In this document: piece by piece, positions 1-18,951 of the stretch
How positions within the stretch are numbered: position 1 is the stretch's first letter
Layout: every line of letters starts with the position of its first letter
From: a virus
Reading direction: 5' to 3' (one strand)
Virus record (IMG/VR): IMGVR_UViG_3300023440_000323
Location: 1 to 21,735 of that record
Length of the DNA stretch: 21,735 bases
Made by a program: the position numbers and the translations under genes
Notes under the pieces: generated by a model
The model's database searches: none
What the model saw: the letters and a program-made list of their open reading frames with translations, nothing else
Told to the model about the DNA's origin: nothing

Positions 1-47
1 GTCCTCCACGGTTGGTTTTGCAACTCCATGGAATACCAGAATGGACC

Positions 48-77
48 GCCCCTGCCGGGGCATGCCCCGGCAGGGGC
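48..77. repeat. Perfect 30-bp GC-rich palindrome
   Basis: Arms 48-61 and 64-77 are exact reverse complements, and the central AT completes an uninterrupted palindrome. No T-run follows on either strand, so it does not look like an ordinary rho-independent terminator. It lies in the TR-to-RT spacer of the DGR, where it could fold as a strong hairpin in the TR-containing RNA or extrude as a cruciform. A terminator-like or protein-binding role is the alternative. The palindrome is seen directly; its role is inferred. Confidence 0.85.
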
Positions 78-164
78 GCACAGCGCAATCTCCAACAAAA
101 TTTCCAGACGTCAGGTTACAGTACCAATATTTCGTCGTAAATCCCCCCAACTCTCTTCACGGCT

Positions 165-207
165 GGCCGCCCCTGATGTTCGCGCAAGCTACCAAAAAGG
201 GGCGGCC
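165..207. repeat. Inverted repeat, 10-bp stem, in the DGR spacer
   Basis: Positions 165-174 pair with 198-207 without mismatch, enclosing about 23 bases. On the minus strand this hairpin would lie about 85 bases after the end of TR in the same transcript. No T-run follows. It is a candidate structural element of the DGR RNA, but a 10-bp GC-rich inverted repeat can also arise by chance in GC-rich DNA. Confidence 0.5.
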
Positions 208-290
208 TGTCGATTTCGCCGCAAGGCAGGACAAGAACATCCCTGTGGCTCCACTATTTCCTTTCCTGGAATTTGAGGGGAAGCCATAGT

Positions 291-397
291 CGGACCGGAA
301 CCCCACGTTGTTGTTCGCGTTCGTCCGATAGTTGTTCAGGTTCGCGGACCAGACGCCGGCGATCGAGCCGTTGCCCCAGTTGCCGCCAGAGATCATG
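291..397 (-). other. DGR template repeat (TR)
   Basis: This 107-bp segment matches 844-950 at a constant offset of 553 bp with nine mismatches: at 309, 314, 333, 342, 363, 371, 381, 393 and 396. Every mismatch is a T on the plus strand, which is an A on the TR coding strand. By my count 23 of the 107 positions are such adenines, so the pattern is very unlikely by chance (about 1e-6 if mismatches were random). The adenines are concentrated in AAC codons, as is typical of DGR templates. The segment abuts the avd gene, whose stop codon (393-395) lies inside the TR 5' end. TR is expected to be transcribed and copied by an error-prone reverse transcriptase into VR, while remaining unchanged itself. 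Confidence 0.96.
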
Positions 398-803
398 ATG
401 ATGCCTTGCCCTTGTCCGCCTGTATCCAGCCGCCGATCATGCGCCCAAACTCGTCCACGAGGTTGCTTATGGCGATGTATCGATGTGCCGAAAGCAGGCG
501 AACATCTTCATCTGGCGATCGACCATCCTTGAATCCGAGATAGCCGAGCTCATTCGCCAGATGCAGCTGCATTCGCAGCTGTTCATGCGCGATATCGAGA
601 TTCACGAGAGTCGTTTTCTTGTGATATCTCTTCTGCGCTTCCACCATCAGGTCATAGACCCTGTAGGCGGTATTTCGGATTCGCGAGCTGAGCGCATACC
701 GCTCGTGACGAGGAAAGTGGTTCAGGTAGATGTTCAAAAGCTTCATGAGCTCGATGAATTTCCTGTTCATGTTGGCCTCGGCGTGAATGCTTCGGTTGAT
801 CAT
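393..803 (-). CDS. avd: DGR accessory variability determinant Avd (four-helix bundle protein)
   Basis: This 136-residue protein is helical throughout, with many basic and hydrophobic residues, and resembles the Avd family. Recognisable stretches are FPRHERYALSSRIRNTAYRV near residues 30-49, an ELGYLGF segment in the middle, and LSAHRYIAISNLVDEFGRM near the C-terminus. In known DGRs, Avd forms a positively charged barrel-like pentamer that binds the reverse transcriptase and the TR RNA and is required for cDNA synthesis. Length agrees with the family (about 110-135 residues). The gene begins 23 bp after the stop of the variable protein gene and ends inside TR, the usual VP-avd-TR-RT order. The ATG at 803 is preceded by a G-rich stretch. 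An internal Met at residue 12 (ATG at 770) is a possible alternative start. Confidence 0.93.
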   Translation of the reverse strand: MINRSIHAEANMNRKFIELMKLLNIYLNHFPRHERYALSSRIRNTAYRVYDLMVEAQKRYHKKTTLVNLDIAHEQLRMQLHLANELGYLGFKDGRSPDEDVRLLSAHRYIAISNLVDEFGRMIGGWIQADKGKASS

Positions 804-822
804 GGCCCCCGCTCGCTATCGC

Positions 823-839
823 TCACTCAGACAGAGTAA
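823..839 (-). repeat. Short hairpin just after the variable repeat (candidate DGR target hairpin)
   Basis: On the minus strand six bases (839-834) can pair with 828-823, with one G-T wobble, around a five-base loop. The hairpin begins about five bases after the end of VR and encloses the stop codon of the variable protein. In the Bordetella phage DGR a hairpin a few bases downstream of VR promotes target recognition. The position fits, but the stem is weak. Confidence 0.3.
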
Positions 840-2194
840 CAGGCGGACCGGAACCCCACGTGGTTGCTCGCGTTCGTCCGATAGTCGTTCAGGTCCGCGG
901 ACCAGACGCCGGCGAGCGAGCCGCTGCCCCAGTAGCCGCCAGAGAGCACGGCGAGGTTGCTGCGCCAGTATTCGTAAATACCGTCAACGCCAAAAAGATT
1001 GATACCAGCCGCGGACTTCCCGAGAGCATCCTTGTAGATGCCCAGGCCGGTCAGGGTGTTTCCGATGCCCGCTGTTGCCCCGTCCAACACCTGATTGGCG
1101 GCGTTGCCAAACCGTTGCCAGGCGCCCGCCGAATTGGTGATCATGGAGAGATCGGTGGCGTCGAACAATGTGGCCAGGTGCGCTGCATCGCCCCAATGAT
1201 CGGCGGCACCATTCCAGCCGGATGTAAAATCCTGCATCCTCACGGTTGTCTTGGCGACATAGAACGCCGTTGTGCCAAGCGTATCGTTGATGGCCTCGGC
1301 TGCCGTTGTGCCGGGCCTTGTCAGGCCGATACTGACCTCCCACATGTTCCCGTTCAGATCGACAACGCCGCAGGCCTGGCCGTTATGCGCGGTCTTTGCG
1401 AGATTGTTGGCGCTGCCGGTCTTGGCGCAGTTGGAATATCCGTCAGATACGAACGAAAGGCTTGCGTCGTTGACATCGCCGAGCGCGTTATTGTTGTTTC
1501 CTTTCGGGAAATTCGTGATCCCGGCCGCGTCATACCATGCGCAGTATGTAGCGGCAGTCGCAGCCTGACCGTGGGCCATCGCAAGCATCGCCAGGGCGGC
1601 ATAAATAAACCTGCTGGTGCAGAAAAACTCGCTCCCGCGCGTCTTGGCCCCATCAATGCAGGAGTAATAGGCATTTGCTGGCGCACCGTTCAGGCCGCTG
1701 ATAGGATTATGCGCCGGGGATGTTGATATGGGCAGGCCGCCCTTGATCGAGCTGGCCACGCCGGCATTGTTGCTGCACTGATACTTGTCGACAAAGAGCC
1801 CCTCGTGGTTCTGCCCGCCATCCTTGAAGGCCCGGTGCAGCGCATAGCCGGCAGCATTTGCCGCGGCCTCATCGCCAAAATCACCGACATCCTTGATGTC
1901 GATATTCAGGCCGGTGATCTTGTAATAGAATGCCGGGACATAAACCATCACCGAGCCGTCTGAATACTGGTAATTACCATAGTTGGCCGAGGCAATATCT
2001 TCGGATCCGGGCATCTTCGAGAATCCTGCCGGCAATACCGATGGAACGCCAACACCGAATCCCTGCTGTCCGGGCGTACCGATGCGATTTACAGACGGCT
2101 TGATGCCGAAACCGGCGGCAAATTGCTGATCTCCCTTCAGATTCACAACCCGGCCTGATTGCGGCTCGATGTTGTCGATCTTGATCGTACTCAT
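827..2194 (-). CDS. DGR variable protein: receptor-binding tail protein with FGE/C-type-lectin-like fold
   Basis: This 455-residue protein has an N-terminus of the phage tail-fiber type (MSTIKIDNIEPQSGRVVNLK), then a middle and C-terminal domain resembling formylglycine-generating-enzyme/sulfatase-modifying-factor proteins. Marks of that family are GLFVDKYQC near 132-140, VVDLNGNMWEVSIG at 277-290, and a C-terminal GG.W....AGVWSA.LN.YR....N..GFR segment. This C-type-lectin-like fold is used by known DGR variable proteins such as Mtd and TvpA to display variable ligand-binding residues. The last 36 or so residues (about 416-451) are encoded by VR. Residues differing from the TR translation are 416, 417, 421, 424, 427, 434, 437, 443 and 445. 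The start at 2194 has a good AGGAGA site. An enzymatic role is unlikely; host-surface binding at the tail tip is inferred from context. Confidence 0.93.
   Translation of the reverse strand: MSTIKIDNIEPQSGRVVNLKGDQQFAAGFGIKPSVNRIGTPGQQGFGVGVPSVLPAGFSKMPGSEDIASANYGNYQYSDGSVMVYVPAFYYKITGLNIDIKDVGDFGDEAAANAAGYALHRAFKDGGQNHEGLFVDKYQCSNNAGVASSIKGGLPISTSPAHNPISGLNGAPANAYYSCIDGAKTRGSEFFCTSRFIYAALAMLAMAHGQAATAATYCAWYDAAGITNFPKGNNNNALGDVNDASLSFVSDGYSNCAKTGSANNLAKTAHNGQACGVVDLNGNMWEVSIGLTRPGTTAAEAINDTLGTTAFYVAKTTVRMQDFTSGWNGAADHWGDAAHLATLFDATDLSMITNSAGAWQRFGNAANQVLDGATAGIGNTLTGLGIYKDALGKSAAGINLFGVDGIYEYWRSNLAVLSGGYWGSGSLAGVWSADLNDYRTNASNHVGFRSACYSV
844..950 (-). repeat. DGR variable repeat (VR)
   Basis: This is the 3' end of the variable protein gene, and it aligns with TR 291-397 without gaps. 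Nine substitutions are all at TR adenines and all are nonsynonymous: AAC codons of TR have become Tyr, Ser, Asp, Asp, Ser and His codons, two ATC codons have become Leu, and ATG has become Val. The last 17 coding-strand bases (860 to 844) are identical in both copies and GC-rich, fitting the initiation-of-mutagenic-homing segment. Identity ends abruptly beyond 844, and at the other end the first mismatch not at an adenine is at 951. Confidence 0.96.
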
Positions 2195-2218: not shown

Positions 2219-2587
2219 TCAGATTATCGTCCAGACGCTTCCCGGTGCGATATCAACCGTCACGCCTGCTGCTATTCCGACAGGGCCGACCGAATGCCCA
2301 TTGAAGCCGGAAGGCAGCGACAGATTACCGGTAATGACATTGTCGTTCTTGATGATTGCCCCATAGCCGGCAGCAAGCGCTGCTTGAGCCGCTGAAGCGG
2401 CTGCATCCGCTGCGCTTGCTGCCGCCGCATCACGATCAAGGGCGGTCTGAGCCCTGTCTGCGGCGGCCGCAGACGCCGAGATGGCGGCGTTTGCGGCCGA
2501 GTTGGCTGCCTCGTTTGCCTTGGTGATGACGGTGCCGGGCACGGTGCCAGCATCATTGATGCTGAGCTGCGCTATCTTAATTGGCAT
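2219..2587 (-). CDS. Short tail fiber protein with alanine-rich coiled coil
   Basis: This 122-residue protein has an N-terminal start (MPIKIAQLS), a highly Ala-rich heptad-like region at about residues 24-74 that predicts a trimeric coiled coil, and a C-terminal beta-type cap with SLPSGFNGHSVGPVGI and a closing VTVDIAPGSVWTII. Similar caps are common at the C-terminus of phage tail fiber and collar proteins. The start overlaps the end of the upstream gene by 11 bp and has a GGAGG site. It lies between the BppU-like gene and the variable protein, so it may form the shaft linking the tail tip to the variable receptor-binding protein; this role is inferred. Confidence 0.75.
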   Translation of the reverse strand: MPIKIAQLSINDAGTVPGTVITKANEAANSAANAAISASAAAADRAQTALDRDAAAASAADAAASAAQAALAAGYGAIIKNDNVITGNLSLPSGFNGHSVGPVGIAAGVTVDIAPGSVWTII

Positions 2588-2906
2588 TGGTAATATCCTC
2601 CAGCAGGTTGAGGCGGAATGTATCCGTGGAGTTCACGGCAACCCCTTCCTTGAATTCGATATCGACATCGTACAGGCCCGGTGGCCAGGTTGCGGTCGTT
2701 GCCGCATCGGCTTCGATCCTGAACAGGCCGTTTGCTGCATCGATGACTGCAATCGAGAACGTGACCTTCTGACCGGTCATATGCTTACCCTGGCAGGCGA
2801 TCACGACGCCGGTCAGGTCACGCGGCTGGGTCATCGCATCATCCGTATATGCGATGACATCCTCGCCAAATGTATCGCCACGCTTGGCGGTTACTTCATT
2901 CGCCAT
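2577..2906 (-). CDS. BppU-like tail protein, Ig-like fold
   Basis: This 109-residue protein begins MANEVTAKRGDTFGEDVIAY and contains a motif order (a D-T-F segment, then DLTGVVIACQ, then GLYDVDIEF and a C-terminal TDTFRLNLLEDIT) resembling the N-terminal domain of BppU-type baseplate upper proteins and similar small phage proteins. These domains usually anchor receptor-binding proteins to the tail tip. The ATG at 2906 has an AGGAGG site six bases upstream. It sits directly after the J-like tail-tip gene, which supports an adaptor role. The family assignment is by resemblance only. Confidence 0.65.
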   Translation of the reverse strand: MANEVTAKRGDTFGEDVIAYTDDAMTQPRDLTGVVIACQGKHMTGQKVTFSIAVIDAANGLFRIEADAATTATWPPGLYDVDIEFKEGVAVNSTDTFRLNLLEDITNAN

Positions 2907-2915
2907 CTCTGCCTC

Positions 2916-4442
2916 CTATTGCCAGTCCGCATAGTCGATCTCGCGCAAGGTGACGCGCTGTACCATTCGCAGCGGATCGTCCAGAACCGATGCAACCTCG
3001 AACGGTCGGGCGTTGTAGCCATTGCGCGCGCTGGTCCAGGCGAGCACATCGAACGGCTCAAGCGCTACCATGCGCGGCGGCAGGGCAAGCACATGCGTGC
3101 GCCAGCGCCGATCGTCAGCAAGCCAGGCCTTTTGCAGTCTCGTGACCTGGTGCGCGCGGGTCACGGCTGGCAGCTGCACGTCAGCCACCAGCTTGCGATT
3201 GCCGTCCTCCTGCCTTGCGGCCTGATCTTCCCATAATGTTGCGTCACGCGGCTGGTAAACGGACGCGGGATCAACCCAACTTGCCGCGACCGCATTATGG
3301 GTATCCGACAGGCTGGCCGCCGGACGCAGCTCCCGCCCCTCGGTCACAACAATATCGTCATCGAGCAACACTCCGCTCGGCAATGCCGGGGCGCCGACCC
3401 GGATCAACCAGCGCCCGCCGACATCGCTCAGCGCCGCCGTGCAGGATTTCTGCAACTCCGCGATCACATCCGCGGGCCGCCTGTCCAGGCGCACCTCGAT
3501 ACCGGCCTCATATGCAGGCACCATGTTGCCAGCGCCATCATCGACCAGAGCATCGCAAGCATCCATTGCCGCTGCCCAGATCGCATAGGGCAGATCTGCC
3601 TCTTGCGCCTGGCCGCCCCATATATCACCCAACCCGATGTCGATCCCACGCAGGATGTTGTAGATCATAACGGCCGGGTTGCGCGTCGGAGACCATGTCG
3701 CCCTGTCATTCCAGCGCTGCGTCCCGACGCCTCCTGCCGTGCTGTCCGCACGAGGGTCGTACATTGGAATGCCGCTCAGCTCGAAACGCATGCGCGGCTG
3801 ACCCGCAAACAACGAGGTATTCGCGCGCAGGGTTACTATCGCCCAGCACACCCCTTCACCGACCATATCAGCCGCCCACGGAAAATCCGGATGGCTGCCG
3901 TATTTTGCCAGCAGCATCGGATCTGCGGTTGTCTGGGTGCCGTCATAAAACTTCACCCAGGCATAGCCTGTGTATTTTCCGCCCAGCTCCTTCCCGTAGT
4001 CAGGATGTGTGGCGCCCGTGAATGGCGCCCATTCCCCGCCGATGGAAACCCGCAGCAGCTGGCATCCGGGAAGACATGAAAGTGCAATCACGAACGTCTT
4101 GTATTCGGTCCCTGTCGTGCCGCCGTGGGTCAGTGGCGGATAGACGAGTTGGCCGGCGGTTGCATACTGCCCGAGAACAAACGTCTCGGCATTAACCTCC
4201 CCGGTCATGGTGTATGGCGTTGCGATTGATGCCTGATCGCGACCGGGTCGACCGCGGATCGCAATGGCCAGCGCCGACAACGCAAGCGCTGCCGCTGTTC
4301 TTACAAAAACACCTGCCAGCCAGCTGCTGGCGGCAAAGGTCGTGACGGCAGTCCACGCCGCTCCGATCGCGCCGAAGATCGGTGCTGCTGCTGCCGCGCC
4401 AGGCACCAGCAGAAACCACAATAACAGGACGATCAGCCGCAT
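2916..4442 (-). CDS. Tail tip / host specificity protein (J- or GTA megatron-like, shortened)
   Basis: This 508-residue protein begins MRLIVLLLWFLLVPGAAAAA, a strong signal or membrane segment, with a second hydrophobic stretch at about residues 30-65. The body holds segments seen in phage host-specificity and tail-tip proteins, such as RNPAVMIYNILRG, then ADVIAELQKSCTAALSDVGG and a C-terminal VTLREIDYADW. I chose the ATG at 4442, which has a GGTGAGAG site and overlaps the upstream gene by 10 bp, over an earlier in-frame ATG at 4511 that would add 23 uncharacteristic residues. At about 500 residues it is much shorter than lambda J or GTA gp15. It probably forms the central tip, with receptor binding moved to the fiber genes downstream. 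Confidence 0.85.
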   Translation of the reverse strand: MRLIVLLLWFLLVPGAAAAAPIFGAIGAAWTAVTTFAASSWLAGVFVRTAAALALSALAIAIRGRPGRDQASIATPYTMTGEVNAETFVLGQYATAGQLVYPPLTHGGTTGTEYKTFVIALSCLPGCQLLRVSIGGEWAPFTGATHPDYGKELGGKYTGYAWVKFYDGTQTTADPMLLAKYGSHPDFPWAADMVGEGVCWAIVTLRANTSLFAGQPRMRFELSGIPMYDPRADSTAGGVGTQRWNDRATWSPTRNPAVMIYNILRGIDIGLGDIWGGQAQEADLPYAIWAAAMDACDALVDDGAGNMVPAYEAGIEVRLDRRPADVIAELQKSCTAALSDVGGRWLIRVGAPALPSGVLLDDDIVVTEGRELRPAASLSDTHNAVAASWVDPASVYQPRDATLWEDQAARQEDGNRKLVADVQLPAVTRAHQVTRLQKAWLADDRRWRTHVLALPPRMVALEPFDVLAWTSARNGYNARPFEVASVLDDPLRMVQRVTLREIDYADWQ

Positions 4443-4846
4443 TTGAACGCTCTCACCACTTTGTCGCGCGGGACGTGGCCAAGCCCCGACATGGTGCGCA
4501 CCGCCACCCATGCGCCGTTGACCACCCCAAGTGAGGGCCCATCATTACCCTCCACAACGGCGATGTCGCCAACCTGTGCGCGCCCAGGCTCAATCTCTGG
4601 CAGGCGGGCGGCCGTCAGCGCGACATGGTTGCGATGTCCTGCCTTGTGCAGCACCCGCAGCCCGCCGCGCAACGTGGTGTAACGCCCGCGCCATCCGTCA
4701 GCGAGATCAATCCCCGTCATGGCCAGGACCGCGCCCGCCGCAAACAGGGCGCAATCGCTTTTGCCATATTCAAATGGGCGCACTGCCTCTGCGGCCAGCC
4801 ACGCCGCCAGGCGCGCGCGCCAGTCTGGGCGTCTGATCATTTCCAT
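4433..4846 (-). CDS. DUF6950-like tail protein (NlpC/P60-type peptidase position)
   Basis: This 137-residue protein has the motif FEYGKSDCALFAAGAVLAMT with Cys32 as a likely nucleophile, followed by DLADGWRGRYTTLRGG and PGRAQVGDIAVV. These resemble the DUF6950 group, related to NlpC/P60 cysteine peptidases found in phage tail-tip operons. In gene transfer agents the gene at this position encodes a cell-wall peptidase. I cannot see a clear catalytic His, so enzyme activity is unproven. Two starts are possible: 4846, or 4840, where the ATG overlaps the upstream stop as ATGA. Confidence 0.78.
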   Translation of the reverse strand: MEMIRRPDWRARLAAWLAAEAVRPFEYGKSDCALFAAGAVLAMTGIDLADGWRGRYTTLRGGLRVLHKAGHRNHVALTAARLPEIEPGRAQVGDIAVVEGNDGPSLGVVNGAWVAVRTMSGLGHVPRDKVVRAFKCG

Positions 4847-5928: not shown

Positions 5929-6567
5929 CTACCTCAGTGTCTGCAGTAGCGTGAACTGCACGCCCGACATGTGCGCGCGCGCAAAACGGCCCTGGCGCAC
6001 ACTTGCGGGATCGAGGATGGCCTTGAAGGTCGGATTGACCAAGGTCACCATCATTCCCGTTGTGACATTGGCCCGCAAGGCTGGCACCAGTTCGAGCATA
6101 GGCGTCGCGCCAGAAACGCCTGCGGCGCCCCCGGTCACCACCTGGTGCAAATGAGGAATGCCACCGACATCGATCGACAGGAAATCCCCCACCGATATCG
6201 TGTATCCAACCGGCAGACCCGCCAGCGACAGCGACAGCCTGTCCGCGCTGATACCTCCCACCGAGATTGCCGCGCCATTGATCGTGCCACCCGGGTCAAG
6301 CGCCGGCATCCTGCCCTCGACCGGCGTTACGAGGAAGCTCGTTCCGGTCCGCTGCACCCTGCGCAACCGCGCCTGCAGCGCGCGGCCGTCATCAATGCGT
6401 TCGGCAACCACGCTGATCGCACAACGCCACAAGCTCGCACCCAGAGATGACACTGTAACCTCACCACCAGCCGTGCGACTGATCTCTGCCACCTCGGACA
6501 ATTCAGGCTCTGCCTGACTCACACGCAGACCAGCCCAGAAATCTGCCAGCGGGATCGGCGTACTCAT
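5929..6567 (-). CDS. Distal tail protein-like structural protein
   Basis: This 212-residue protein begins MSTPIPLADFWAGLRVSQA and is rich in beta-type sequence, with LVTPVEGRMPALDPGG and a C-terminal FARAHMSGVQFTLLQTLR. It lies between the tape measure and the hub, where distal tail proteins are encoded in siphophages and in gene transfer agents (gp12). The ATG overlaps the tape measure stop as ATGA, indicating translational coupling. The assignment relies mostly on position and general character. Confidence 0.7.
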   Translation of the reverse strand: MSTPIPLADFWAGLRVSQAEPELSEVAEISRTAGGEVTVSSLGASLWRCAISVVAERIDDGRALQARLRRVQRTGTSFLVTPVEGRMPALDPGGTINGAAISVGGISADRLSLSLAGLPVGYTISVGDFLSIDVGGIPHLHQVVTGGAAGVSGATPMLELVPALRANVTTGMMVTLVNPTFKAILDPASVRQGRFARAHMSGVQFTLLQTLR

Positions 6568-8936
6568 CCGCGAACACCCGGGTTGCGCAAGGCGTCATGG
6601 ACGCGCTGCGGCAGGGTGTGCCGGTCATAGGTATCAATCCCGGCATCGGTGACAGACACCGCAACATCGCGCGAAACCGCCTCGATCGTCGGGCGCAACA
6701 TCGGCCCTTCTTCCGCCCGCATGATCAACTCAACCCGGTGGACGCCCCCGCCCGCCGCGCGCACCCCCAGCTTGCCGCCGATCCGTGTCAGCGGCATGAT
6801 CGCCTCGGGCCCGGCCTCACCCATCAGCCCGGTGCCGCCGCGCATCGGAAACAGCGTCGGGCTGGTCACGACGCCGCCCGCGGCAAAGGCCTGGACCCGG
6901 CCATGCGCAAACACGTTGCCATTGGCATTGGCAAACAGGCCGCCGAAGATCCCGCCGATAGCGCTGCCCAGCCCGCCTTTCCACAGGGCCTCGAATGCCG
7001 AATTGATGGCCATGTCGGCCAGCTTGTTCAGCACGCCCGACAGCGCATCGCCAAGCGACCGCGTGCGTTTCACCAGATCCCGGAATGCGCCGCCCAGGCT
7101 GTCCTTCAGCGCACTGGCCGCCTTTGCCGCCGCATCTGCGACAGATTTGCCGCTGCCTGCCAGTTTCTGCGCCAGATCGGCGGCGGCATTGCCGGTATCC
7201 GTGATTGCGCTCTTGCCCAGATCGGCAGCCGCAGCAATCGCATCGCCAAGCGCCTTCCATGATTTCAGCGGCGCCAGGACACCCTTGCCGATGTCCGACG
7301 CTGCCTGCCGGTACATGTTGGCATTCTCCAGCGCCTTCTGCGCAACCTTGTCCAGACCGGTATCCGGCATTTTCAGCGGGTTATCGGCGAAGGCTTGGCG
7401 AAACGCCTCGGCCGCCGCGTTGCCGGCCGCAGACGCCTTGCCGGCAAACGGATTGTCGATGCCGCCGATCGAGATGTGATCGAACAGCCCGACGCGACGG
7501 GGCGACTTGATGAACTTGAGGAATTCATTGACCTTGCGGCCAAACCAGTTCAGCCTGTCGATCGCCCCGTTGATCATGTGTTCGATGCCCTTGACCAGGC
7601 TGTTTGCGGCCTGGAACACCAGATCGCCGATGGCTGCGGGCAACTGCCCCCAGATCGCCTTGATGGCGTTGAAAGCCCCCTCGAAGGTGTTTGCAGCCTT
7701 GTTACCGAACGCGATCACGCTGCGGATCGCGCTCTGCATGCCCGAGGCGGCATCCGCCTTGAGGTCGAAAAACACCGCCGTCATCCGCGCGCCAAGGGCC
7801 ACGGCCCCGGTCTTGATGCGGTCCCACACCTCGACCGCCAGATCCTTCAACAGGCTGAGCGCATTCCCGAACCCGCCCGCGCCCTTCACCAGCTGGCCGA
7901 ACCAGTAGATCAGCTCGCCTGCGCCCACAATCAGGGCCCCGATCCCGGTACGGATGATCGCCCCTTTCAGCACCTTCATGGACAACGCCAGCTTGCCGAC
8001 ACCCAGCGCGGCGGCGGTCAGCGAGGCGACAAGGCGGATGCCCATGACTGCGGCGAAGGTCGCAGCGATGGTGGCAATCTCGCCGATATGGTTGAACAGC
8101 CCCTTGATGGCACGCCCGAGCGGGCCGGTCGTCTTGCCGATGGCCGCGAAAGCGTTCGCCATGGCCTCGAGCGCGGGCGCGGCTGCCACCGCCAGCTGGT
8201 TGGCGATACCCCGCCACAGCAGGCCCATGCGGCTCAGCGCATCGTTGGTACGCTGGATCCGGGCGGCGTCCTGCTCGGAAACCGCAACCCCGAAATCCTT
8301 CACGTCTTTCGTGGCCTGCCGCAGTGTAGCGCTGTCGATGCGCGAGAAGATCAGCCCGGCCCGTGCCCCGAAGATCTGCGAGGCGACAGCGGCGCGCTGC
8401 GCAGCCGGGATGTATTGCTGGATCGCGTCCTGAATCTTCGTCAGCTTCTGGTCGATCGGCAGCTTGGCGAGGTCAGTGGCCGAGAGATGCAGCTGCTGCA
8501 ACGCCTTCACCGCTGGCCCCGTGCCCTGGGCGGCCTGGGACAGGCTCTTGGTCATCATGATGGTGGCCTGCTCGACCTCGCCCTGCGACACGCCGGCCAG
8601 ATCGGCGGCGCGCGCCAGCACCTGCATGCTGGCGGTCGTCGTGCCCAACGAGGCCGCCAGCTTGGCCTGTTCGTCGATGGTCTGGAGGCTGGAGCGCACC
8701 ATGGATACCCCGGCGCTGACCGCTGCCGCCGCCATGATTCCGGCCGCGATCTTCGCGCGCCGGGCGAACTTCGCCAGCTTCGCATTGGCGACCTCCACCT
8801 CGCGGGATGCCTTGCCAAAGCCGCGCTTGGCGGCATTCCCAATGCCCTCGAACTCGGCCTTCACCAACTTGCCGCCCACCGCAGCAAGCCGGACATTGAC
8901 CTTTTTTTCAGCCAATTTCCTGCTCCTTTTGTTCAT
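6564..8936 (-). CDS. Tail tape measure protein
   Basis: This 790-residue protein is the longest in the window, as expected for the tape measure that sets tail length and travels with DNA on injection. It has a basic N-terminus, a hydrophobic segment at about 61-80 (AKIAAGIMAAAAVSAGVSMV), long Ala-rich helical regions, and a hydrophobic cluster around 285-360 that could insert in the host membrane. The C-terminal portion has the family's usual AAGGVV.SPTLFPMRGG and GLMGEAGPEAIMPL motifs. The gene starts inside the end of the GT frame (29-bp overlap) and overlaps the next gene as ATGA. Confidence 0.93.
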   Translation of the reverse strand: MNKRSRKLAEKKVNVRLAAVGGKLVKAEFEGIGNAAKRGFGKASREVEVANAKLAKFARRAKIAAGIMAAAAVSAGVSMVRSSLQTIDEQAKLAASLGTTTASMQVLARAADLAGVSQGEVEQATIMMTKSLSQAAQGTGPAVKALQQLHLSATDLAKLPIDQKLTKIQDAIQQYIPAAQRAAVASQIFGARAGLIFSRIDSATLRQATKDVKDFGVAVSEQDAARIQRTNDALSRMGLLWRGIANQLAVAAAPALEAMANAFAAIGKTTGPLGRAIKGLFNHIGEIATIAATFAAVMGIRLVASLTAAALGVGKLALSMKVLKGAIIRTGIGALIVGAGELIYWFGQLVKGAGGFGNALSLLKDLAVEVWDRIKTGAVALGARMTAVFFDLKADAASGMQSAIRSVIAFGNKAANTFEGAFNAIKAIWGQLPAAIGDLVFQAANSLVKGIEHMINGAIDRLNWFGRKVNEFLKFIKSPRRVGLFDHISIGGIDNPFAGKASAAGNAAAEAFRQAFADNPLKMPDTGLDKVAQKALENANMYRQAASDIGKGVLAPLKSWKALGDAIAAAADLGKSAITDTGNAAADLAQKLAGSGKSVADAAAKAASALKDSLGGAFRDLVKRTRSLGDALSGVLNKLADMAINSAFEALWKGGLGSAIGGIFGGLFANANGNVFAHGRVQAFAAGGVVTSPTLFPMRGGTGLMGEAGPEAIMPLTRIGGKLGVRAAGGGVHRVELIMRAEEGPMLRPTIEAVSRDVAVSVTDAGIDTYDRHTLPQRVHDALRNPGVRG

Positions 8937-9593
8937 TCATCCTGGCGACCATCACCGCCTCGAGCGCGGGCAACAGTTCGGCCACCACCACGCCCGGCAC
9001 GCCCAGCGCCCGGGCAAGCGCCAGCGCCGCCGCCAAATCCCAGCCGATGATCGCGCCGGATGGGGCGGTGCGCAGTTGCCCGCCAAGACGCCCGACCAGG
9101 TCCCACACCTGCATACCCTCGAGTGTCTGCGGCGCATTCAGCCTTTGCGGGCAGTCTTCGCAGAAGGTTGCGGGGCCCTCGCCAGGGTCGCAGGCCTCGC
9201 AATATCCCTCGCCCCCGCCGAAGATCCATTCGGCAAGGGCGCAGAGGCGTTTTTTTCCTGTTCCAGCAGCAGACCTTTTGCCACATAGCCGGTCTGGAAG
9301 GCCTCAAAAAGCGGCCAGAGGTCGAGCAGGGCGTCGATGGCCTCGGGACTGACGGGGATGACATTGCCGTCCGCGTCGCCAACACCCTCCCAGTCAAGCA
9401 CCGCGACCCGGGCCAGCGCCCTGGCAAAGGCCAGCGCGCTTTCCTCGTCACCGGCATCTTCGCCCAGCGCCTGCACCGCCGGGTCATTCCGTGCCGCCAC
9501 CATCAGGGCCGTGGTCAGGGGGTGCAGTTTCACCCGCACGCCATGGCCGAGATCCAGCCGCGCGGGTTCATTGGAAAGATCGAGTTTCAGCAT
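8908..9593 (-). CDS. Tail assembly chaperone GT, -1 frameshift product
   Basis: A -1 frameshift at 9249-9255 joins the first 115 codons of G to a second frame running to the stop at 8908-8910, giving about 228 residues. The extension has a CEAC-(9 residues)-CEDC arrangement that looks like a zinc-binding knuckle, then MQVWDLVGRLGG and an acidic-basic C-terminus. In lambda, gpG and gpGT bind the tape measure and recruit tail tube subunits; the G:GT ratio matters for tail assembly. The extension is open without interruption from the slippery site. A Met at 9114 would be the only start if it were made separately. Its position directly before the tape measure agrees with the role. Confidence 0.85.
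9138..9593 (-). CDS. Tail assembly chaperone G
   Basis: This is the unshifted product of 151 residues, starting MLKLDLSNEPARLDLGHG and containing LEWE-type and PEAIDALLDLWPLFEAFQTG segments typical of GTA- and lambda-like tail assembly chaperones. I chose the ATG at 9593, three bases after the tail tube stop, over an in-frame upstream start at 9635 that lies inside the tail tube gene. The last 36 residues after the slippery site (ASAPLPNG... to the stop at 9138) are low-complexity, as expected for a tail past a frameshift site. Confidence 0.85.
   Translation of the reverse strand: MLKLDLSNEPARLDLGHGVRVKLHPLTTALMVAARNDPAVQALGEDAGDEESALAFARALARVAVLDWEGVGDADGNVIPVSPEAIDALLDLWPLFEAFQTGYVAKGLLLEQEKNASAPLPNGSSAGARDIARPATLARAPQPSAKTARKG
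9210..9255 (-). promoter_or_regulatory. Programmed -1 ribosomal frameshift site
   Basis: On the minus strand the heptamer A AAA AAC spans 9255-9249 in the correct zero frame (codons GAA AAA AAC). After a seven-base spacer, bases 9241-9229 pair with 9222-9210 in a 13-bp stem that includes two G-U pairs, closing a six-base loop. Slippery heptamer, 5-9 base spacer and strong hairpin are the standard elements of -1 frameshifting. The site lies between the G frame and the -1 frame of the GT extension. Confidence 0.9.
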
Positions 9594-9595
9594 GG

Positions 9596-10534
9596 TCAAT
9601 AACTGCTCACCTGGTTCTTGAGGACGACCGTGCACATCTGTCCGGCCACAGAGTCATAGGCCGCCTGCCAGTCGAAGCTGGCCTGGATGCCTTGCGGGCC
9701 CTGTATTTCCACTCGGGGCCGCGGCAGGTAGACCGCGTGCGCGGTGATCGTCAGGCTCACGTTGGCCGAGATCACCCACGAGAACTCCAACGAGGCGGAA
9801 CTGCCATTCAGCGCCTGGGTCATGAGGGTATTGTCCGCGAACCGCACATCGATCTTGCCAGTCAGCGCGGCAATGGAGGGATCTGCCCCGTCGATGCGCC
9901 CGTCCGAGCGGATGGTCTCGATCCGTTCGACATTGTTGGAATAGGTCAGGTCGGCCGAGACGATGTTGCCCAGCGCTGTGCCATTCCTCTTGATCGCCCC
10001 GTTGAAATGCCCGAACCGCTGCAGGGCGTAGCCCGTCGGCGTCCCGGCCGCCGTGGCGGTGGCGACGTTTTCGCCCTGCGCGACCAGCTTCACATCCGCC
10101 GTCAGCAGGCCGGAGCGCTGCATTTGCAGGCTCAACTGATCCAGCACGCAGCCTGTATACATGGCGAAGCGCGGGATCTCCGGCATCGCCACCTCGATCG
10201 CCATGCTGGGCAAGTTCCAGGAGCCGGACTTGAAGGTATGCGTCCTGTTGGTCGTCCCGGTCGTCGTCGGATTGCCGAAGGCGGCTTTCAGCCAGAAGCC
10301 GAAGGCCTCGGCGTCGAGCGGCACCTTGATGTCGCCATCCGCCGTGACCGCGTCCTTGATGGGTGCCAGCGGATCGCGGCCATATCCCAGCAGTTCCGAG
10401 GCCAGCAGGGGCTGCTCGGCTCCAAGTGAAGCGCTGGCGAAGGGCATCTGCATGAAGCCACTCGTCGGCGCTGTTCCATAGGTGGTCTCGAACGCGGCCG
10501 CCAGCTGCGACCGCGCGCCTTGTGCACGGGGCAT
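9596..10534 (-). CDS. Major tail tube protein
   Basis: This 312-residue, mostly beta-type protein lies where lambda gpV and GTA-like tail tube proteins are encoded, between the tail terminator and the G/GT chaperones. It begins MPRAQGARSQLAAAFETTYG and has TADGDIKVPLDAEAFGFWLK, VSADLTYSNNVERIETIR and a C-terminal QGPQGIQASFDWQAAYD. The ATG at 10534 has an AAAGGACGG site, similar to those of the decoration and capsid genes and indicating high expression. A second frame open across the same bases is a GC-driven shadow. Confidence 0.88.
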   Translation of the reverse strand: MPRAQGARSQLAAAFETTYGTAPTSGFMQMPFASASLGAEQPLLASELLGYGRDPLAPIKDAVTADGDIKVPLDAEAFGFWLKAAFGNPTTTGTTNRTHTFKSGSWNLPSMAIEVAMPEIPRFAMYTGCVLDQLSLQMQRSGLLTADVKLVAQGENVATATAAGTPTGYALQRFGHFNGAIKRNGTALGNIVSADLTYSNNVERIETIRSDGRIDGADPSIAALTGKIDVRFADNTLMTQALNGSSASLEFSWVISANVSLTITAHAVYLPRPRVEIQGPQGIQASFDWQAAYDSVAGQMCTVVLKNQVSSY

Positions 10535-10558
10535 TTTTCCGTCCTTTCAATTGCGGGA

Positions 10559-10987
10559 TTATCCCGTAGGGGCTGTGGTGGTGTAGATCAGCGTGATCGG
10601 GAGAACGGCGGCTTTCAGCGCCTGACCGCCCTCGATGGGCAGATCGGTGGGGGCCGGCGCGCCCGGGTCGATCCAGTCGCAGAGGCCGCCCAAGGTGCGG
10701 TCCGCAGTCAATGTGCTGCCGATCTGCTCGACAAGAACATCGAACAGGGTGGCGCGGAGGCTGGCATCCTTGTCCTGGACGATGACCTCGACCTCGGCTT
10801 GGTGCTGCCAGTGATAGCGCAGCGGCGACAGCGTCACCTCGGGCTCGCCGGGATCGCCGTCGCGCAGGATCACGAAGCCGCCTGCGGGCACCCTCTCTGG
10901 CAGCACCTCTCCGCGCAGTACGGTGGTAGGCACGGTTTGTAGGGTGGCGTGCAAGGCACGCAGGATGGATTCGCGGTAGGAAGTCAT
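10559..10987 (-). CDS. Tail completion / tail terminator-like protein
   Basis: This 142-residue protein begins MTSYRESILRALHATLQTVP and contains VILRDGDPGEPEVTLSP and QAEVEVIVQD, a pattern common among small siphophage proteins encoded just before the tail tube gene (lambda U position). Such proteins cap the tail tube and join it to the head. Its upstream neighbour is a gene on the opposite strand, so it is separated from the rest of the operon by an insertion. Its start has only a weak ribosome binding site (GGGCGAG). The role is by position. Confidence 0.7.
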   Translation of the reverse strand: MTSYRESILRALHATLQTVPTTVLRGEVLPERVPAGGFVILRDGDPGEPEVTLSPLRYHWQHQAEVEVIVQDKDASLRATLFDVLVEQIGSTLTADRTLGGLCDWIDPGAPAPTDLPIEGGQALKAAVLPITLIYTTTAPTG

Positions 10988-11024
10988 GATATGCTCGCCC
11001 TATCCAAAAGTGTGAGATCATTAA

Positions 11025-11243
11025 GTGTTTGAGCAGCTCCGCCCGATTATCGAGCAAGAAATCGCAGTCTTGCCTCAAGACGCACGTTTTAATCTCCGAG
11101 ATCTTCTCGGCGGGAAATGGCCAGAAGATGCCGGGGCAGCACGTAAGCTAGGGCGCGATTTTCGAGCGAATCTTCATGCTTTTCCGGGTGTGGCTGATGC
11201 CGGCAAAGATGATCAAAATCTCCGCTGGTATTACAAGCGGTAG
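11025..11243 (+). CDS. DUF1413-like small protein, inserted moron-type gene
   Basis: This 72-residue protein is encoded against the direction of the late operon. It begins MFEQLRPIIEQEIAVLPQDA and continues FNLRDLLGGKWPE, KLGRDFRANLHAFPGV and a C-terminal Asn-Leu-Arg-Trp-Tyr-Tyr segment, matching the general form of DUF1413 proteins of unknown function. The only plausible start is GTG at 11025, because an in-frame stop lies at 11013. GC over 11041-11220 is about 53% by my count, against about 70% in the flanking tail genes. It ends five bases short of the converging neighbour. Opposite orientation, low GC and a complete frame suggest a later insertion, possibly expressed from the prophage. 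Confidence 0.75.
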   Translation: MFEQLRPIIEQEIAVLPQDARFNLRDLLGGKWPEDAGAARKLGRDFRANLHAFPGVADAGKDDQNLRWYYKR

Positions 11244-11248
11244 CCTCG

Positions 11249-11878
11249 CTATGTCCTCCCCTCCACCCACTTCGCCACGATCAGCCCCGGCACGCGGCCT
11301 GCGACCCTCTCCACATCCCGCGCCAGATCCAGCCGCTTTCGCAGTCTGACCTGCGGCACCAGCAGGAAGATCGGCACGGTGGCGCGGCCCCGGCCGGTTT
11401 TCGAGCGGGAGGCAACGCCGAGCCCCCGGCTGTTCAGCCGCCCGTCGGCGACCAGCATGCTGGGGCCACGGCGACGATAAACAAAGCGCAGGCGCATGCC
11501 GCGGCGTTTTTCCCATTCGCCCGGCGTCAGGCGCGCGCCACCACGGCCCTTGCCAGCGGCGGGAAGCGGGATCGCCAGCCAGAAGCCCGCCTTGGAGCGG
11601 ATCAAGACGCCGCGATCATGCGCGCCGACAATTTCGGGGGCGTTCGACCAGACAAAGGCGGCAGCATCGAGGCTGTCGCCCTGCTTGGGATAGGTCCGGT
11701 TGCGAATGGTGCGCGGCAGGCGGTGGCCGAGACCGGCGCCCGTGATTTGCTGACGCCACGCCTGTTTCAACTCGCTCCCGGCCACGGCCATCGCCGCCTT
11801 CACGGCCTTTTCGCCTGCCTTGACCTCTGCCTGCAGCATGGCAACGAGGTCAGGCTCGACGTCGAGTTTCAGCTTCAC
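11249..11878 (-). CDS. DUF6441-like tail completion protein
   Basis: This 209-residue basic protein begins MKLKLDVEPDLVAMLQAEVK and includes LKQAWRQQITGAGLG, NAPEIVGAHDRGVLI and a FWLAIPLP segment, recalling the DUF6441 group in lambda-like alphaproteobacterial prophages and the position of lambda Z. Such proteins complete the neck or tail end. The start is GTG, overlapping the upstream stop as GTGA, so translation is probably coupled. The family name is given from resemblance. Confidence 0.75.
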   Translation of the reverse strand: MKLKLDVEPDLVAMLQAEVKAGEKAVKAAMAVAGSELKQAWRQQITGAGLGHRLPRTIRNRTYPKQGDSLDAAAFVWSNAPEIVGAHDRGVLIRSKAGFWLAIPLPAAGKGRGGARLTPGEWEKRRGMRLRFVYRRRGPSMLVADGRLNSRGLGVASRSKTGRGRATVPIFLLVPQVRLRKRLDLARDVERVAGRVPGLIVAKWVEGRT

Positions 11879-12186
11879 GCCGGCACCAGTTCCAATGTCC
11901 AGATAAGCCGCTCGCGGTCGCGCTTCGGCTCGCCCTGGATCACGTAGTTGTCGGTGCCAATCGCAATCCCGTCCCCCGGCTTCGGGTTTGGCATCTCGGA
12001 CACCCGCACATCAATGAGCGTGGTGTCCGTCAGGATCTGCGCCGCCCCGAACGTTGTCACCTCGTCCGGAGCCTTGCGGATCACCCGCACGGGCACGGGC
12101 GTGGCACCAAACGGATACCAGGTTGCATCCGCCGCCATGTTGGGATCACTGAAGATCGCATCCATGGCAGCGGCAAAGGCGGTCAT
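11875..12186 (-). CDS. Head-tail connector protein (FII-like position)
   Basis: This 103-residue protein begins MTAFAAAMDAIFSDPNMAAD and has PVPVRVIRKAPDEVT, LIDVRVSEMPNPKPGDGIAI and YVIQGEPKRDRERLIWTLEL, the beta-barrel pattern of small head-tail joining proteins related to lambda gpFII. Its ATG shares a base with the stop of the capsid gene (TGATG), and its stop overlaps the next GTG. It would attach to the gpW-filled portal and provide the tail docking surface. Confidence 0.8.
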   Translation of the reverse strand: MTAFAAAMDAIFSDPNMAADATWYPFGATPVPVRVIRKAPDEVTTFGAAQILTDTTLIDVRVSEMPNPKPGDGIAIGTDNYVIQGEPKRDRERLIWTLELVPA

Positions 12187-13208
12187 CAGTTCGAACTGAA
12201 CAGCCGCACGGCCAGTGCCGGGCGCTTGTTGACCGGCAGGATCGAGGCCTCGGTCAAGAGGTCGATCCCGTCACCGCGCTCGCGCGGCATCTGGCGGGCA
12301 TAGATCGGCAAGCCCACGGTGTTGGCTGTCTCGATCAGGTTGGCCGGTGCACCATAGGTCGTGAAGGTATCGACCGTCCCCAAGGGGAAGGCAATGCCCT
12401 CGCCCGCCGGAATGGCCCGATCCGTGGTGCCGTTCGAGAGCGTGAAGATCGGGTTGTATTCCTCGAAGGTGATCCCGGCGAAGGGGAAGCTGCGGCGCAC
12501 GTCCTCGCGCAGGGGCTGCGCGCCCGTTGCACTGTAGTACTGGTACGCCTGCTGCACCGAGGAATGGCCGATCAGCTTGTCGAAGAACTCCGGGCTGACC
12601 AGCGCGCGGACGCCGGTCATGCTCTCGCCCTTGAGGTTGACCTCGATCTGGCGGATCACGTCGCGCACCTTCTGCTGCAACTTGGTGCCCGCGGTGCCCA
12701 GCAGGAAGTCGACCGAGATCTGGGTGATGCCGAACTCGGTGAAGTAGTCATAGAGCGTCGTGCCGGCGCCGTCCTTGACGATGCCACGCAGCGCGTTGAT
12801 CTCCATGTATTCGCGGGTCTGCGCATGCTTGTTGCGCATGAGCGTCAACTTGCGGGTCATTACCTCGACCAACGTGTCGGCATTGCTGCGCGAGCCCAGC
12901 GCCGGCACCCCCTGGATATCGGCGGGCAGGATCACGTCGTTATGCGGGATCCACGGCAGCGCGAAGGAACGCATGCTGCGGCCCTCCCGAGTGCCCACGG
13001 TCGCGGGCGCGCCGAGCGGCACCGAGGGCAGCAACGACAGCACGCCCTCGCGCTGCTCGATGATCACGCTGCGCTGGGTGATCCCTTCGAAGCGGAACAG
13101 GCCGAGCTGTGCGAGCCTTGAGTAGAGGTTGGGGAGGATGTTGATGGCGCGGGTCATCTCGGCCAGCGTATAGCCGCCCGCATCAAATGGGTTTGCCACG
13201 ACAGTCAT
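12186..13208 (-). CDS. Major capsid protein (lambda gpE family)
   Basis: This 340-residue protein belongs to the lambda E family by length and features: an N-terminal MTRAINILPNLYSRLAQLGL, then RSVIIEQREGVLSLLPSVP, NKHAQTREYMEINALRGIV, VRALVSPEFFDKLIGHSSVQ and FPFAGITFEEYNP. It forms the HK97-fold icosahedral shell. The start at 13208 has an AAAGGAA site, and the gene follows the decoration protein as in lambda (D then E). Confidence 0.95.
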   Translation of the reverse strand: MTVVANPFDAGGYTLAEMTRAINILPNLYSRLAQLGLFRFEGITQRSVIIEQREGVLSLLPSVPLGAPATVGTREGRSMRSFALPWIPHNDVILPADIQGVPALGSRSNADTLVEVMTRKLTLMRNKHAQTREYMEINALRGIVKDGAGTTLYDYFTEFGITQISVDFLLGTAGTKLQQKVRDVIRQIEVNLKGESMTGVRALVSPEFFDKLIGHSSVQQAYQYYSATGAQPLREDVRRSFPFAGITFEEYNPIFTLSNGTTDRAIPAGEGIAFPLGTVDTFTTYGAPANLIETANTVGLPIYARQMPRERGDGIDLLTEASILPVNKRPALAVRLFSSN

Positions 13209-13237
13209 TGTCGGATTCCTTTCCTGTTGGGATTTGA

Positions 13238-13618
13238 TCAGGCGGCCGTGCGCGGCACGATGCCCGCGGCCTTGAGCTGGTCGATCTTGGCCGCTTTCTG
13301 GGCCGCGGTGGTGACGGTTGCGTCATAGACGAGCTGCGCATCCGACACGATCGCCGGGCCGCGGGCAAGCACCACGCCGGTGGCATCCGCCGCGGTGGCG
13401 TCCACCGCCTCGATCAGAACGGCACTCGCGACCTGCGCGCCATCGGTACCGGTTGCGGTCGCGAGCTTGTATTTGCCGCTGGCCGTGATCTTGCCGAGCA
13501 CGGCGCCAAGCGGATAGCTGGTGCCGGCCAGAAGCGTCACGGTTTCGCGGGTGTAATCGGGGTTGTCGTCATATTTGACGAGGTCGCCCTGGGTTGGGGC
13601 CATGGTCAGGGGGGCCAT
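13238..13618 (-). CDS. Head decoration protein (lambda gpD family)
   Basis: This 126-residue protein has the family's typical opening, here KYDDNPDYTRETVTLLAGTS followed by YPLGAVLGKIT, and an alanine- and valine-rich beta-type body ending LKAAGIVPRTAA. Trimers of such proteins clamp the expanded capsid lattice. It is encoded between the protease/scaffold gene and the capsid gene, as in lambda. The ATG at 13618 has an AAAGGATC site. Confidence 0.93.
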   Translation of the reverse strand: MAPLTMAPTQGDLVKYDDNPDYTRETVTLLAGTSYPLGAVLGKITASGKYKLATATGTDGAQVASAVLIEAVDATAADATGVVLARGPAIVSDAQLVYDATVTTAAQKAAKIDQLKAAGIVPRTAA

Positions 13619-13655
13619 TGTTCAGATCCTTTTTGCAGTTTTGATCGGGTTTTGA

Positions 13656-14150
13656 TCAGGCGGCGTGCGTGCCGCGCGCGGCCTGCTCACGCGCGCGCTC
13701 GGCGGCAGCGATCAGCGGGCTTTCCTTGGGGGTGGTCTCGGCAGCAGGGGGCGCCACCGGCGAAATGGCCGCGGCTTCGCCCCGCGCCGCCAGCTGCGAC
13801 AGCACGGATGCGCGCAGGGCGTCGGGCTTCACGCCGTTCCTCAAGGCGTCGGACGCATCGATTTCCAGCCCGAGACGGGCGGCCTGCGCCGCGATTTCGG
13901 CAATCTCGGCCGCCTCGGCGCGGATCTGGGCGGCAATGTCGGGCGCGCCCTCACCGGACGGCGGCACGACCGGGGCGGCGGCAGCCGGGGCCGGTTTGGC
14001 CGCCTGGGGCGCGGCCGGGGTCGCATTGGCGGCAGGGGCCTCGGCGGAAGCGGATGCCTCGGGCGTCGGCTCCATCTCGGTCGCGGCGGGCGCAGCCTGC
14101 GCCTGGGTGTTCGCCGCCGCATCTTCACGTTTTGCGGGTTTCAGTGCCAT
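13656..14150 (-). CDS. Nested capsid scaffold protein (lambda Nu3-like)
   Basis: An in-frame ATG at 14150 inside the protease gene has a strong AAAGGA site eight bases upstream, very like the ribosome binding sites of the tail tube, capsid and decoration genes. It would make a separate 164-residue protein starting MALKPAKREDAAANTQAQAA, rich in Ala, Pro and Glu and ending in a helical segment. In lambda the scaffold Nu3 is produced the same way from within gene C. The start site is visible; production of the short form is inferred. Confidence 0.8.
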   Translation of the reverse strand: MALKPAKREDAAANTQAQAAPAATEMEPTPEASASAEAPAANATPAAPQAAKPAPAAAAPVVPPSGEGAPDIAAQIRAEAAEIAEIAAQAARLGLEIDASDALRNGVKPDALRASVLSQLAARGEAAAISPVAPPAAETTPKESPLIAAAERAREQAARGTHAA

Positions 14151-15038
14151 GGTTTCAGTCCTTTCACTGTTGGTGGATTGCGGTTTCTTGCGCCCGGTGC
14201 GGGCGGCAATGCCGGCGGGCGCATCGAGGACGGCCATGAGGTCCGCATGCGCCTGTTCCAGCGTGGCAATGCCGTCGGCAAGGCCAACATCCAGCGCATG
14301 CTGCCCGCGATAGACGGCGGCCTCGGTTGCAGCGATGGCCTCGGGCTTCATCCCCCGGCCACGGGCCACCTGGCCGACCAGCTGGCCGTAAAGATCATCG
14401 ACGTCCGCCTGCAGGTCGGCCTCGGCCCCGGGCGAAAGCGGGATATGCGGGTTGCCGTCCAGTTTTTTCGCGCCGGCATGGACGAGGGTGTATTTGCGGC
14501 CCTCCGCCTGGTCGTGCCCGCTTTGGTCCACGTGCACGGCAATGACGCCGATCGAGCCGACCTCGCCGGTTTGCGTGACCAGGAGGCGGTCGGCCACGGA
14601 TGCGATCGCGCAGGCGGCTGACAGCGCCTGTTCGCGGGCAATGGCCCAGAGCGGCTTGCCGGAATCCATTTTCAGCGCCTCAATGTGACTCAAGAGGTCG
14701 AACAGCCCCGCGACCTCACCGCCGGGGCTGTCGATCTCCATCAGAACCCCGCGCACGCTGGGGGTGGTGAAGGCGTCCTCGACGGTGGCGGCGATCTCGT
14801 CATAGGACACGATCCCGAAGAACGAGCTCAGCCAGTCGCCGCGCTGCACCAGCGGGCCGACGATCGGCAGATGCGCGATACCGCCTTCGGTCATCACCCA
14901 GCCTTGGCAGGCGGCTTGCGGGCTCTCGGCCTCTCCGAGAAAAGCCTGTGGCGCGGCCACCAGCGCCTCGACGGCGCGCGGGGCCAGTGCCAGCGGGCGG
15001 CCTGTCAGGCGCGCGCGCCACAATTCCGCGTGTCTCAT
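13656..15038 (-). CDS. S49 family head maturation protease with scaffold C-terminus (lambda gpC-like)
   Basis: This 460-residue protein has an S49/SppA-type protease domain in residues 1 to about 280: VRGVLMEIDSPGGEVAGLFD near 96-115, EQALSAACAIAS with Ser140 as the probable nucleophile, TGEVGSIGVIAVHVD near 157-171, and Lys191/Lys192 as the probable general base. The C-terminal third is Ala/Pro-rich and low-complexity, then helical, as in scaffold proteins. This matches lambda gpC, whose 3' part encodes the scaffold Nu3. The ATG overlaps the portal stop as ATGA and has a GGAGG site. Confidence 0.93.
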   Translation of the reverse strand: MRHAELWRARLTGRPLALAPRAVEALVAAPQAFLGEAESPQAACQGWVMTEGGIAHLPIVGPLVQRGDWLSSFFGIVSYDEIAATVEDAFTTPSVRGVLMEIDSPGGEVAGLFDLLSHIEALKMDSGKPLWAIAREQALSAACAIASVADRLLVTQTGEVGSIGVIAVHVDQSGHDQAEGRKYTLVHAGAKKLDGNPHIPLSPGAEADLQADVDDLYGQLVGQVARGRGMKPEAIAATEAAVYRGQHALDVGLADGIATLEQAHADLMAVLDAPAGIAARTGRKKPQSTNSERTETMALKPAKREDAAANTQAQAAPAATEMEPTPEASASAEAPAANATPAAPQAAKPAPAAAAPVVPPSGEGAPDIAAQIRAEAAEIAEIAAQAARLGLEIDASDALRNGVKPDALRASVLSQLAARGEAAAISPVAPPAAETTPKESPLIAAAERAREQAARGTHAA

Positions 15039-16507: not shown

Positions 16508-16508
16508 G

Positions 16509-16724
16509 TCAGAGCCCCTTTTCGGCGTAAACGCGGGTCACGCGGCGGTTCGGGTTTTTCCCGCCTGCCGCGGAAATTCTGGCCTCGAGATCGGCGATGG
16601 CGCGCGCCATTTCCGCGTCGGAGCCATAGGTGACGGTCTTGCCGTCGTAAGTTGTCGAGCGCACGCCGCGGAAGCGCGCCGCCAGCAGCGCGTCCAGCTG
16701 CGCCTGCATTTCTGCAAGGGTCAT
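16509..16724 (-). CDS. gpW-like head-tail joining protein
   Basis: This 71-residue protein begins MTLAEMQAQLDALLAARFRG and has VRSTTYDGKTVTYGSDAEMA and DLEARISAAGG, a good match in form to gpW, which is about 68 residues. gpW closes the portal after packaging and prepares it for the connector. It sits between terminase large subunit and portal, as in lambda (A-W-B). The ATG has a GAGG site three bases after the terminase stop. Confidence 0.92.
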   Translation of the reverse strand: MTLAEMQAQLDALLAARFRGVRSTTYDGKTVTYGSDAEMARAIADLEARISAAGGKNPNRRVTRVYAEKGL

Positions 16725-16727
16725 CGG

Positions 16728-18734: not shown

Positions 18735-18951
18735 GGCCTGGGTCTCCGTCGCAGTTGTATGGCGGCAGGCCGAGACGCTTCCGCCGCTGAATGTCGGCAT
18801 GGCTCGCATGGACCATCTCCCGCAGGAGCGCATCCCGACATGCCCACCGTCCGCGCCAGGATACGCGCTTCGGCCGACTACTGAGCCGATCTTCCTCACT
18901 AGTGAGCCTGGCGGCCTCAGCAGTTTCCGGTTTCCACTTGTCAGCCCGCAT
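18721..18951 (-). CDS. Small unknown protein between terminase subunits (76 aa)
   Basis: I do not recognise this protein. It begins MRADKWKPETAEAARLTSEE, is strongly basic in the middle (RPKRVSWRGRWACRDALL), and ends RRKRLGLPPYNCDGDPGHVPR, a form compatible with a small nucleic-acid-binding protein. The ATG at 18951 follows a GAGG by six bases; ATGs at 18954 and 18981 are also in frame. It overlaps the stop of the preceding small gene by 11 bp and the terminase start by 14 bp, a pattern of coupled real genes. Confidence 0.6.
   Translation of the reverse strand: MRADKWKPETAEAARLTSEEDRLSSRPKRVSWRGRWACRDALLREMVHASHADIQRRKRLGLPPYNCDGDPGHVPR

Follow-up and report, generated by a model that had tools for sequence, protein, structure and literature searches.

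The two 107-nt repeats at 291-397 and 844-950 of the IMG/VR virus contig IMGVR_UViG_3300023440_000323 (21,735 bp, analyzed at its full length and referred to here as the window) are, with a probability of roughly 95%, the template repeat (TR) and variable repeat (VR) of a phage-borne diversity-generating retroelement (DGR) situated beside a tail module. Sequence comparison indicates that the reverse transcriptase (RT) gene of this copy was probably cut by an insertion sequence (IS), leaving a DGR with a broken RT rather than an intact one. Read along the minus strand, the element begins with the target gene (2194-827), whose 3' end holds the VR, and continues with avd (803-393), the TR (397-291) and the RT start (160-126). 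DGRs are recognized by substitutions confined to adenines together with an adjoining Avd gene, and the assignment is made because both are present here: adenine-only substitution beside an Avd gene. The VR also forms the C-terminal end of the target gene, as is expected of a DGR.

Table 1. Coordinates of the features of the window and the evidence for each.
Feature	Position	Strand	Evidence
IS256-family insertion sequence end, tip at 125	1-125	-	similarity to transposase flank and to L160
Perfect 30-nt palindrome within the IS end, outside the DGR	48-77	.	DNA fold z -4.8
RT gene, first 35 nt, then insertion	126-160	-	alignment to L001
79-codon ORF with TR in the frame of the target	157-396	-	ATG overlaps avd stop, TGA overlaps RT start
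TR	291-397	-	repeat comparison in the window and with L001
avd, accessory protein, 136 aa	393-803	-	PF22296 1.5e-19; NF033474 81.4 bits; phrog_3206
VR	844-950	-	repeat comparison in the window and with L001
Target gene, 455 aa, putative tail/receptor-binding protein, C-terminal VR	827-2194	-	phrog_2889, phrog_5302, hhalign
Three tail genes upstream of target (tail fibre-like; BppU_N-like, weak; J-like tail tip)	2219-4511	-	
Phage structural module: tape measure, tail tube, capsid E, S49 protease, portal (lambda-family), GpA terminase	6564-18899	-	

Ungapped comparison of the two repeats gave nine mismatches, every one of them at a plus-strand T of the TR copy, i.e., at an adenine of the coding strand (five T>C, three T>G and one T>A). 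The TR copy contains 23 such positions and its remaining 84 positions are free of mismatches, a distribution with a hypergeometric probability of 2.3e-7; the earlier note had put the value near 1e-6. The nine changes fall in nine different codons of the target frame and alter the residue each time: ATG became GTG once, ATC became CTC twice, and six AAC codons became Tyr, Ser, Asp, Asp, Ser and His codons. Direct comparison therefore agrees with the claims made previously that the differences are restricted to template adenines, that all nine change an amino acid and that six AAC codons were converted to Tyr, Ser, Asp or His; substitutions at template G, C or T, which in similar numbers were to count against that account, were absent.

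A sister contig, IMGVR_UViG_3300023439_000095 (4510 bp; L001), aligns with window 2718-126 at 95.8% identity (108 differences in 2593 bp). The TR is identical in the two contigs (107/107), and so is the 165-base stretch that follows it, as far as the point at which the window RT is interrupted. The VR of L001 differs from the TR at 13 positions, 13/13 of them adenines (chance 6.3e-11), and from the window VR at 14 positions, 14/14 of them template adenines (chance 6.7e-12). The avd genes differ at ten bases with no residue change (100% identity over 136 aa). The claim that mutagenic homing happened at least once in this lineage is borne out by this combination of an identical TR with a different, adenine-only set of VR changes; the comparison supports homing in the window/L001 lineage, with two different outcomes seen. 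Across 396 bp covering the avd end, TR, spacer and RT start (L001 2198-2593, window 521-126), the contigs show no differences, in contrast to their overall divergence of 4.2%. This identity would reflect either constraint or recombination.

L001 carries a full RT ORF that starts with GTG at 2559 and matches RVT_1 (56.8 bits) and phrog_1423 (331 bits); its sequence includes YVDD and the SQ dipeptide that is described as a mark of DGR RTs (PMC3521204). The end of the ORF overlaps the next gene in another frame, and the true C-terminus is unsure. That gene (L001 3508-3918) is predicted to encode 137 aa and is conserved among relatives, lying downstream of the cassette or, in loci without one, immediately behind the target. 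A search for an intact RT in the window record returned no RVT_1 match anywhere along its length. An intact relative was located in an Amylibacter metagenome-assembled genome (L164; target 80%, Avd 80% and RT 65% identity), in which 15/15 TR/VR changes are at adenines; the host is therefore probably a member of the Rhodobacterales.

The adenine bias extends to the relatives at large. In 122 distinct TR/VR pairs (relatives plus the window), 1885 of 1999 mismatches were at TR adenines, and adenines made up 3393 of the 13,941 TR bases. Each pair was the best ungapped one of its locus, taken with no adenine filter and with Avd aligned over at least 100 residues; five loci that were too short, two that had no pair and 13 repeats of an already counted pair were left out. 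Less adenine-pure pairs were found at four loci: L019 (4/14), L008 (19/26), L084 (8/11) and L085 (19/27).

The Avd of the window scores just above the curated NF033474 cut-off of 80 bits. The target protein matched two families annotated as ‘tail protein’ (phrog_2889 and phrog_5302) and, by hhalign (97.4), ORF18 of Vibrio phage VP58.5, which is annotated as SUMF1/EgtB/PvdO; searches of Pfam and of PDB sequences with this protein were without match. Its AlphaFold model (mean pLDDT 53) was too poor to show a C-type lectin fold. Mtd was considered as a homologue of the target and rejected, the hhalign probability being only 0.7. The BPP-1 element needs a hairpin just 3' of its VR. A hairpin or cruciform sought in the corresponding stretch of the window (800-850, minus strand) by DNA folding was not significant (z 0.43), and an Rfam search of the window and L001 gave no match. 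By the known DGR mechanism, TR RNA would be reverse-transcribed by the RT together with Avd, with errors at adenines; the mutated cDNA would replace the VR at the C-terminus of the tail protein, and the replacement would alter the binding surface of that protein.

The break in the RT was located by two independent comparisons. The match to L001 ends at window 126, after the first 35 nt of the RT gene. Window 17-129 is 78.8% identical to sequence flanking an IS256-family transposase annotated on a plasmid of Sulfitobacter dubius, and that alignment places the start of the IS transposase, which would read leftward, about 4 nt beyond the left edge of the window. Another viral contig, L160, begins (1-106) with the same IS end at 92% identity, a match that reaches window 125 and no further. 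In the comparisons with L001 and L160, the tip of the IS and the break in the RT thus coincide to the base (125/126). Only one IS end lies in the record, with the transposase off its edge, and the family is named by likeness to the annotated IS256-family flank. Elements of this family make a short target duplication of 8 bp. Past the IS end, L160 continues with a gene that has its relative at window 11249-11878. A role for the palindrome at 48-77 as a cruciform or terminator of the DGR was entertained and then dismissed: the palindrome is inside the IS end, and L157 and L158 have similar ones in the same position.

With its RT cut, homing in this copy is probably off unless an RT acts in trans. 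The cut would be recent, given that TR and VR have gained no difference outside the adenines (0/84).

Two other accounts of these data were weighed. An ordinary duplication of the gene end, with the copies later changed by gene conversion or random divergence and no retroelement involved, would yield near-identical repeats such as these, which are 553 bp apart with one inside a gene and the other inside a small ORF; however, it does not predict that 9/9 changes should be at adenines (2.3e-7), nor that L001 should show the same preference with a different set of changes (6.3e-11), and Avd lies between the two copies and an RT is present in L001. This account is refuted by the base specificity. 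The other accepts the DGR but holds that its RT is intact and the element active, the IS end being an assembly switch or an insertion carried by only part of the population. Repeated elements are where assemblies break, and the contig does end in one; L160, too, starts within this IS end, and TR and VR still differ at adenines only. The coincidence of IS tip and RT break to the base is nevertheless what a real insertion would be expected to leave, and broken or lost cassettes are common among the relatives (21/74), so that an intact RT in this copy is considered unlikely.

The latter count comes from a survey of 98 target-protein loci, 15 of which end too near the target or lack its C-terminus; the other 83 were classed, with the label of no cassette unsure for L119, L125 and L152 (L125 also shows a small RT fragment). 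After near-copies were merged, 74 loci remained, the window among them: 53 with an intact cassette, ten with remnants of avd or RT, ten without a cassette and the one broken by the IS. On a tree of the target protein with the VR end removed, the intact label changes 17 times, counted without direction, and at least 15 of these changes are forced by starred branches; the changes cluster no more than shuffled labels do. Fragments of avd and/or RT with differing breakpoints follow the target in L083, L093, L101, L103, L111, L122, L132, L144, L165 and L176. These comparisons suggest that the cassette is deleted or broken recurrently while the target stays and, given the avd/RT remnants, at least those changes would be losses. 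The targets of L109 and L111 are near-identical (branches 0.015 and 0.019), and the cassette is intact in one of the two loci and reduced to a remnant in the other, consistent with a recent loss.

The TR of this element also lies in an open reading frame. In both the window and L001, a 79-codon ORF that includes the TR in the frame of the target starts with an ATG overlapping the avd stop and ends with a TGA overlapping the GTG start of the RT, in the window by 4 nt each; L164 has the same arrangement with an ATG as the RT start. Within the TR itself, stops in the target frame were found at none of 130 loci, which the coding role of the VR alone would require. The spacer between TR and RT was therefore the informative region, and it was examined wherever Avd, target, RT start and a TR/VR pair were all present (129 loci, dereplicated to 79). 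The target frame of the spacer was free of stops in 55/79 loci, against 17 and 10 for the other two frames (Fisher 1.6e-9 and 1.8e-13, with kinship ignored). Stops per codon numbered 49/3514 in the target frame and 150/3497 and 199/3537 in the others, and a Markov null gave a mean of 14.6 and at most 23 open spacers in 200 draws. The excess persisted when RTs were dereplicated to below 70% identity (29/43 open, against 9 and 5). At 21 of the 79 loci (L022, L061, L147 and L174, for example), the TR frame is fused to the RT; at 34 it ends on the RT start, 30 of these with an exact 4-nt overlap; and at 24 it closes earlier. In several fused loci, the first codon with RT homology is not a start codon. 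In VP58.5, ACA1 and phiARM81mr, the RT gene as annotated begins at the avd stop and includes the TR in frame; the annotated RT genes of Bise and BalMu-1 do not show this layout.

The frame open from TR to RT in 55/79 loci suggests that translation of the mutagenesis template itself may occur in this branch of phage DGRs, a reading offered tentatively and at less than even odds. The open frame could instead be a by-product of RNA structure or shared descent, which is given about an even chance. Codon-position bias in the spacer is weak (42/58/62 for rel 2 open pairs and 57/67/80 for rel 0 open pairs), and engineered BPP-1 TRs with stop codons still home when used in Bordetella (PMC3240598). In a set of BPP-1/BalMu-1-type loci (74 found by searching with the BPP-1 and BalMu-1 RTs, 30 usable after dereplication), the target frame was open in just 7/30 and the RT frame in 19/30. 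A by-product of this kind is harder to reconcile with the count of 55 against 17 and 10 and a null that never exceeded 23, with the persistence of the excess below 70% RT identity, or with the 30 exact 4-nt overlaps, the 21 fusions and the fused loci whose RT homology runs from a non-start codon. Two stronger versions of template translation were rejected: a functional TR peptide, as the codon-position signal is weak and the peptide is not conserved, and a target-frame rule for all DGRs, which fails in the BPP-1/BalMu-type set. In BPP-1 itself (L182), no stop interrupts the brt frame over the 699 nt that precede the annotated start, a stretch that takes in spacer and TR.

Published work touches on template translation at several points. 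A BPP-1 operon whose TR carried stop codons showed almost no activity in E. coli until brt was given a ribosome-binding site in front of it; the lack of that site is the only cause named by the authors (PMC12875486), and the near-inactivity is a hint in favor of TR translation. The TR fused to the RT as its N-terminus is reported for the ACA phages and called uncommon (PMC10612066), so the fused form is already in print for one phage pair. TRs that overlap annotated RT ends are listed in PMC3521204, where TR and RT are considered most likely to be separately transcribed. Neither a wide occurrence of the TR frame-to-RT arrangement nor the idea that it acts as a gatekeeper was found in the literature searched.

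The system is an ordinary DGR of a known type. It shares with the DGR of Bordetella phage BPP-1 (mtd-avd-TR-brt, NC_005357) the order target-avd-TR-RT, a C-terminal VR and adenine mutagenesis, and differs in that its target has no detectable homology to Mtd, in that the BPP-1 spacer is open in the brt frame and closed in the target frame, and in that the window is without a strong hairpin 3' of the VR. The DGRs of VP58.5 and Pseudoalteromonas phage ACA1 have a related target, Avd and RT and a TR frame running into the RT, but their TR is fused to the RT as its N-terminus (for ACA, PMC10612066) whereas in L001 the TR has an ORF of its own that stops on the RT start codon, and the RT of the window is broken. 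RTs broken by insertion elements have been described before: the Acaryochloris marina DGR has an RT inactivated in this way and adenine-only TR/VR differences, which were read as recent inactivation (PMC3521204, 2012). That DGR is in a bacterial genome, whereas the present one belongs to a phage tail module and has an intact sister that is 96% identical. Treponema denticola has kept leftover DGR targets after loss of RT and TR (PMC4891356); here, in several phages, avd or RT fragments with different breakpoints lie beside the target. Burkholderia phage KS5, which has an IS and an RT, was rejected as a parallel, its RT not being taken for a DGR one by the authors (PMC3091744). PMC6642488 yielded no passage on loss or insertion.

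The window and L001 form a sister pair in which one TR has given two independent VR outcomes, with the RT intact in one contig and IS-broken in the other. They offer a natural comparison of an active with a frozen element, the frozen state of the window being probable. The wider point is that DGR cassettes appear to be broken or lost repeatedly while the tail gene stays. If the translation reading is true, the template would be more than an RNA and would be tied to RT synthesis, which would depend on ribosomes crossing an in-frame, stop-free template. A template with a frameshift or stop would then silence its own RT before the target gene was ruined, and RT synthesis could be subject to feedback from RT and Avd bound to that RNA.
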